A stretch of 64,000 nt of DNA from Alkalilacustris brevis (lineage in GTDB: Bacteria; Pseudomonadota; Alphaproteobacteria; Rhodobacterales; Rhodobacteraceae): the NCBI RefSeq assembly GCF_003350345.1, contig NZ_QNVJ01000064.1, positions 186,001 through 250,000 of the forward strand, in the 5' to 3' direction. A program made the position numbers and the translations under genes. A model generated the notes under the pieces. It made no database searches, was not told where the DNA came from, and was given only the letters and a program-made list of their open reading frames with translations. Shown piece by piece: positions 37,498 to 37,789 of the stretch (position 1 is its first letter; each line of letters opens with the position of its first letter).

Positions 37498-37789
37498 GCT
37501 GCCGTAGCTCAGTGGTAGAGCACTCCCTTGGTAAGTCATTGCCTCCTCGGCCGGAAACGGCCGAGTGCAAACCGCCCAAAGTCGGGGAAAGCTAACGGCC
37601 CTTGTGGCCCAGGCCAATCCCGAGCCAAGCCCGGCACATCCGGGAAGGTGTAGAGGCCAGACGGGCGGCACCTACGGGCCTTGGGGCCTATGGTGAAGGG
37701 ATGGTCCAGCTCGCAAACCCGAAGGGGCCGCGAAAGCGGTAGCGGGATGAAGGGAGAGGTCGACAGTTCAATCCTGTCCGGCAGCACCA
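37498..37789 (+). tRNA. tRNA-Thr(GGU), interrupted by an intron
   Basis: Exon 1 (37498-37532) has acceptor GCTGCCG, the D arm, anticodon stem CTCCC and TTGGT, ending with the anticodon GGT. Exon 2 (37750-37789) has AA, stem GGGAG, variable loop, T arm GACAG/CTGTC, acceptor CGGCAGC, A and encoded CCA. Joined, they make a 75-nt tRNA with every stem perfectly paired. The 217-base insert between positions 36 and 37 has group I intron features. The gene would not mature without splicing. It is followed by a terminator. Confidence 0.93.
37533..37749 (+). other. Group I intron (IC3-like) in tRNA-Thr
   Basis: The 217-nt intron starts after U36 and ends in G. P1 is GGU/AA pairing UUGCC with a GUCA loop (37530-37543), giving a U-G pair at the splice site. 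P2 is an 8-bp hairpin with GAAA loop (37546-37565). P3 is CCGCCC (37572-37577) with GGGCGG (37663-37668). P4 is UCGGG (37582-37586) with CCCGA (37619-37623). P6 (37630-37644), P7 GGCC (37655-37658) with GGUC (37703-37706), P8 (37669-37695) and P9 with GAAA (37728-37739) follow. CAATCCCGAGCCAAGCC (37615-37631) resembles the conserved core of cyanobacterial/plastid tRNA-Leu introns. No ORF lies within. Confidence 0.88.

Follow-up and report, generated by a model that had tools for sequence, protein, structure and literature searches.

A small IC3-like group I intron in the tRNA-Thr(GGU) gene of Alkalilacustris brevis and other Alphaproteobacteria

Organisation of the tRNA-Thr(GGU) locus

The window analysed here is a stretch of 64,000 nucleotides from the genome of Alkalilacustris brevis (contig NZ_QNVJ01000064.1, positions 186,001 to 250,000). 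Its forward strand carries, at positions 37498-37789, a tRNA-Thr(GGU) gene that is split after anticodon nucleotide U36 by an insert of 217 nt (Table 1). ARAGORN calls a tRNA-Thr(GGT) with a 217-nt intron at this locus when introns are allowed, while the gene is missed by ARAGORN with default settings and by the Rfam tRNA model at its gathering threshold. A splice-site search required a U before the insert, a G at its end, pairing of the anticodon stem and a tRNA that can be called; exactly one split of the gene, the one after U36, passes all of these. Exon and intron boundaries proposed in a first-pass annotation made from the sequence alone are thus correct to the base, as is its placement of the insertion between positions 36 and 37. 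The flanking U and G that it had pointed out are present in the window and in all 27 tRNA-Thr introns with defined boundaries. Joining of the exons after U36, with the G at the intron 3' end, gives a canonical cloverleaf with a GGU anticodon and an encoded CCA. The only difference between this spliced 75-mer and the uninterrupted tRNA of a relative (L008) is one compensated base pair in the acceptor stem.

A terminator-like inverted repeat follows the gene; the promoter and terminator scan, whose loops were limited to 3-8, lists nothing, this repeat included. The window also holds a match to the ffh sRNA (Rfam RF01793; positions 4944-4996 of the reverse strand, 53.4 bits).

Table 1. Features of the tRNA-Thr(GGU) locus and of its intron (positions in the window).
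Feature	Position	Strand	Evidence
murA, conserved neighbour of tRNA-Thr(GGU)	35845..37113	-	NCBIfam TIGR01072; synteny
tRNA-Thr(GGU) 5' exon, G1 to anticodon U36	37498..37532	+	sequence; ARAGORN with introns; splice-site search
Group I intron, 217 nt, without homing endonuclease gene; terminal G at 37749	37533..37749	+	comparative structure with 27 homologous Thr introns; R1 match of 135 bits
Internal guide UUGCC	37539..37543	+	UUGCC in 32/33 Thr introns and 0/47 related introns of other tRNAs
P2 hairpin, GAAA tetraloop	37546..37565	+	changes on both sides in 8/8 pairs
P3 5' strand (partner 37663-37668)	37572..37577	+	100% of cells paired; double changes in 4/6 pairs
P4 5' strand (partner 37619-37623)	37582..37586	+	invariant in all 27
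P6/P6a	37624..37649	+	P6 invariant; P6a with double changes in 5/5 pairs
P7 5' strand (partner 37702-37706)	37655..37659	+	99.3% paired; two pairs doubly changed
P8	37669..37695	+	100% paired; double changes in 3/4 pairs
P9 and P9b, GAAA tetraloop at 37732-37735	37710..37746	+	double changes in 8/9 pairs
tRNA-Thr(GGU) 3' exon, encoded CCA at 37787-37789	37750..37789	+	sequence; spliced-tRNA alignment
Terminator-like inverted repeat GGGCCGCT/AGCGGCCC, then TTTTT	37800..37829	+	read from sequence

The group I core

A structure composed of P2, P3, P4, P5, P6/P6a, P7, P8, P9 and P9b was drawn on the window sequence and tested on an alignment of 27 introns, namely those of the 25 complete loci returned by a genome scan (see below), of the window and of the congener G003. 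In the P2-P9 core 97.4% of the cells are paired, against 80.8% in shuffles, and both partners have changed in 31 of the 47 core pairs. The structure has a covariation score of 0.461; shuffles reach 0.162, and sliding the partners by 1-3 columns yields at most 0.069. The P1 to P9 group I core described in the first-pass annotation is upheld. P7, which in known group I introns harbours the guanosine-binding site, has substitutions among the Thr introns (C-G to U-A, A-U to G-C) that preserve pairing. The minimum-energy fold of the single sequence (z = -2.69) does not display the core, which includes a pseudoknot. Considering this comparative evidence, it is nearly certain that the insert is a group I intron. 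It is also real far beyond chance, since an independent scan for the exon followed by the core returned 27 loci.

Loops L2 and L9b are conserved GAAA tetraloops and the length of the Thr introns ranges from 194 to 268 nt. The absence of an ORF, a size of ~200-300 nt, insertion in the anticodon loop and GNRA tetraloops in L2 and L9 are the features of bacterial IC3 tRNA introns. The window intron is accordingly termed IC3-like, of the bacterial tRNA kind, an assignment made by such features.

The general Rfam model Intron_gpI (RF00028) scores the window at 26.5 bits in a local search (E 9e-5, span 37523-37724), below its cut-off of 50. No match is obtained with Rfam at gathering threshold or with RF00028 over the whole genome, so that the window fails by the refutation rule of the first-pass annotation, which asks for a group I covariance hit over the cut-off. 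Related introns in tRNA-Arg(CCU) and tRNA-Leu(UAA) score 62.2 and 56 bits, respectively, and close homologues span 50-62 bits overall. The low score is a limit of the general model on GC-rich members of the group; RF00028 is a model for detection and not a definition. With R1, a model derived from the Thr introns, the Arg(CCU) and Leu(UAA) kin are recovered at 109-129 bits. The window core has 71-77% DNA identity to these introns, and the likeness to tRNA-Leu introns noticed at first reading holds for their alphaproteobacterial members. Outside tRNA-Thr, the survey of relatives has its best match in an Arg(CCU) intron (L003/L133; 74% identity over 204 nt).

The internal guide matches the host anticodon loop

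The GCC of the internal guide UUGCC pairs with G34, G35 and U36 of the 5' exon to form P1, where the pair at the splice site is a U-G wobble, while its UU pairs with A37 and A38 of the 3' exon to form P10, the full target being GGUAA. UGCC is found directly 5' of P2 in 33 of 33 Thr introns. Arg(CCU) introns carry (U)UGGG at this place and Leu(UAA) introns (U)UGAG, UUGGAG or UUGGG. Guides in other host tRNAs mostly match their own anticodon loops, and those of Arg(CCU) and Leu(UAA) fit theirs. UUGCC being specific to Thr introns, the host tRNA and the guide thus change together, where related introns do not count as independent events.

Distribution of the intron

About 85,000 genomes were scanned with a strict pattern that joins the Thr 5' exon to two downstream core motifs and whose counts are a lower bound. 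Of the 27 loci returned, 25 are complete tRNA-Thr(GGU) genes with the insert at the identical place; the other two are a Thr gene truncated at a contig end (L094) and a tRNA-Leu (L093). Altogether ~33 introns were found in tRNA-Thr(GGU) genes of Alphaproteobacteria, all at one position, with named carriers including SAR116, Acuticoccus, Hyphomicrobium, Roseicella, Inquilinus and Pseudaestuariivita. Within the genus of A. brevis, G003 carries the Thr intron (81% identity), and G002 and G004 have uninterrupted Thr(GGU) genes located elsewhere in their genomes. In Rhodobacteraceae, the family of A. brevis, the Thr intron occurs in 3 of 395 genomes. In a sample spread over the class, 48 of 385 genomes have some relative of the intron, 8 in tRNA-Thr(GGU) by the authors' reading. 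In many Alphaproteobacteria genomes, with and without the intron, tRNA-Thr(GGU) adjoins murA (within the fetched 3-8 kb).

A tree of the intron cores (81 introns, 134 columns) is poorly resolved. Parsimony counts 8 changes on it and a single clade of Thr introns is not rejected (p-AU 0.123). Repeated origins of the Thr introns are therefore not claimed, the tree being compatible with a single origin without demonstrating it.

Related introns in other tRNAs and replicons

Introns of the same family split tRNA-Lys(UUU) genes after position 34 or 35 (L069/L137, L126, L147, L148, L149, L156, L157, L161) and tRNA-Lys(CUU) genes after position 35 (L119, L123, L141, L165) in several Alphaproteobacteria, their guides being mostly GGGAG or AGGAG. 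To our knowledge, introns of this family have no precedent in these two tRNAs. A more distant member splits tRNA-Thr(CGU) after U36 (L155, L158) and has a guide GCG that matches CGU. Four further loci (L152, L154, L160, L164) are apparent tRNA-Leu(CAA) genes split after U33, directly before the anticodon, with boundaries placed by eye.

More than 1,200 plasmid records, mostly enterobacterial, contain a related intron at 60-80% identity. Plasmid pCTX-M3 (NC_004464.2, L166:2429-2727) has an unannotated intron-bearing tRNA-Leu(UAA) gene; the resistance gene aac(3)-IId lies ~650 bases away, a hint that this module may have originated outside enterobacteria. An intron-core match (76.7% over 95 nt of the query) also lies in an unannotated stretch of Gordonia phage Daredevil (NC_048021.1:41906-42006).

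Proposed splicing and probable dependence of the host on the split gene

The genome (3.48 Mb, completeness 100) has 36 other recognised tRNAs, including Thr(CGU), Thr(UGU) and uninterrupted Arg(CCU) and Leu(UAA). An intact Thr(GGU) gene elsewhere, which the first-pass annotation had named as evidence against its reading, was looked for in the genome and none was found, in an assembly of 103 contigs where a second unassembled copy is possible; the intron model also finds one copy only. The pattern of an uninterrupted Thr(GGU) gene is absent from all 11 intron-bearing genomes tested and present in one copy in each of 7 intron-free relatives. ACC and ACU make up 69 of the 101 Thr codons (68%) in five neighbouring genes, ACC being the main Thr codon. 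The host dependence on splicing claimed from the first reading is thus sustained, no other Thr(GGU) gene having been found in the genome.

In all likelihood, a small IC3-like group I ribozyme interrupts the only tRNA-Thr(GGU) gene found and splices itself out to give the decoder of ACC and ACU. The evidence for this consists of the exon and intron boundaries, a core that is conserved and covaries, the match of guide and exons, the lack of another Thr(GGU) gene and the presence or absence of the intron at the murA locus, all of them observed. The transcript would fold so that the guide UUGCC pairs with GGU (P1) and AA (P10) of the anticodon-loop exons. A bound guanosine would cut after U36, and the freed U36 would then attack after the last G of the intron, linking the exons and yielding a normal tRNA for the codons ACC and ACU. 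This two-step, guanosine-initiated self-splicing is inferred from the kinship of the Thr intron to tRNA-Arg(CCU) introns, one of which was shown experimentally to self-splice (PMC7717549). By analogy with the group I family, the splicing chemistry would require no essential proteins and the intron may have arrived through reverse splicing or together with a transferred locus.

The insert could alternatively be a degenerate, non-functional relic of a group I intron in a silent gene, with ACC and ACU covered by another tRNA such as Thr(UGU). The Rfam score under the curated cut-off and the presence of a tRNA-Thr(UGU) gene would fit such a scenario, which is nevertheless very improbable given the invariant core columns, the covarying helices, the intact exons with their compensated acceptor pair and the lack of another Thr(GGU) gene in the 11 intron-bearing genomes. 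Moreover, ACC, the main Thr codon, should be read inefficiently by a UGU anticodon. Removal of the insert by protein enzymes, an endonuclease and a ligase, as for an archaeal bulge-helix-bulge tRNA intron, has hardly any likelihood. Archaeal introns also occur in the anticodon loop, but the window site is 36/37 and not 37/38, the ~200-nt insert has P3-P4-P6-P7-P8 and a guide, and it is homologous to bacterial introns that Rfam scores as group I above its cut-off. An assembly or sequencing artefact, conceivable in a 103-contig draft, is refuted by independent occurrences: a congener carries this structure at that site (81% identity), as do ~30 other independently assembled genomes, including those of the isolates Acuticoccus, Roseicella and Pseudaestuariivita.

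Significance and comparison with known group I introns

In the open-access literature covered by the search, no bacterial tRNA-Thr was found described as carrying a group I intron, although such a description may exist elsewhere. Arg, Gly and Lys tRNAs of cyanobacteria have been claimed to contain group I introns of 22-49 nt (PMC5733544); these are too short for a group I core and were rejected as a precedent. In tRNA-Thr(GGU), a known kind of intron has a new host, site and guide; few bacterial tRNAs were known to carry group I introns, and one more insertion site is now added to them. Standard annotation (ARAGORN default, Rfam cut-offs) misses the split gene, and carrier genomes would therefore appear to lack a tRNA that they need. 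One core found across several anticodon loops, with guides mostly matched to the host, provides a natural setting in which to test how group I introns lacking homing endonucleases change site.

A broader interpretation, held with moderate confidence, is that the alphaproteobacterial IC3 family has spread among anticodon loops (Leu UAA/CAA, Arg CCU, Thr GGU/CGU and Lys UUU/CUU), its guide being re-fitted each time, probably by reverse splicing. Thr(GGU) would then be one unreported outcome of this spread, making the ACC/ACU decoder ribozyme-dependent in the carriers examined.

The introns of alphaproteobacterial tRNA-Arg(CCU) (Agrobacterium; BbgpI of Bartonella bacilliformis) are likewise inserted after U36 and have the same core, a similar size and no ORF. 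They differ from the window intron in their host and in their guide, UUGGG instead of UUGCC. Leu(UAA) introns, compared through their alphaproteobacterial members, have the P3-P8 core in common with the window intron, including AUCCCGAGCCAAG and GGUGUAGAG, but are inserted after position 34 of tRNA-Leu(UAA) and carry the guides UUGAG, UUGGAG or UUGGG. The Azoarcus tRNA-Ile(CAU) intron, whose crystal structure is known, is an IC3 intron of ~205 nt located in the anticodon loop, without an ORF and with GAAA in L2 and L9. By this description it resembles the window intron in size, lack of an ORF, site and GAAA loops, and differs from it in the host tRNA.
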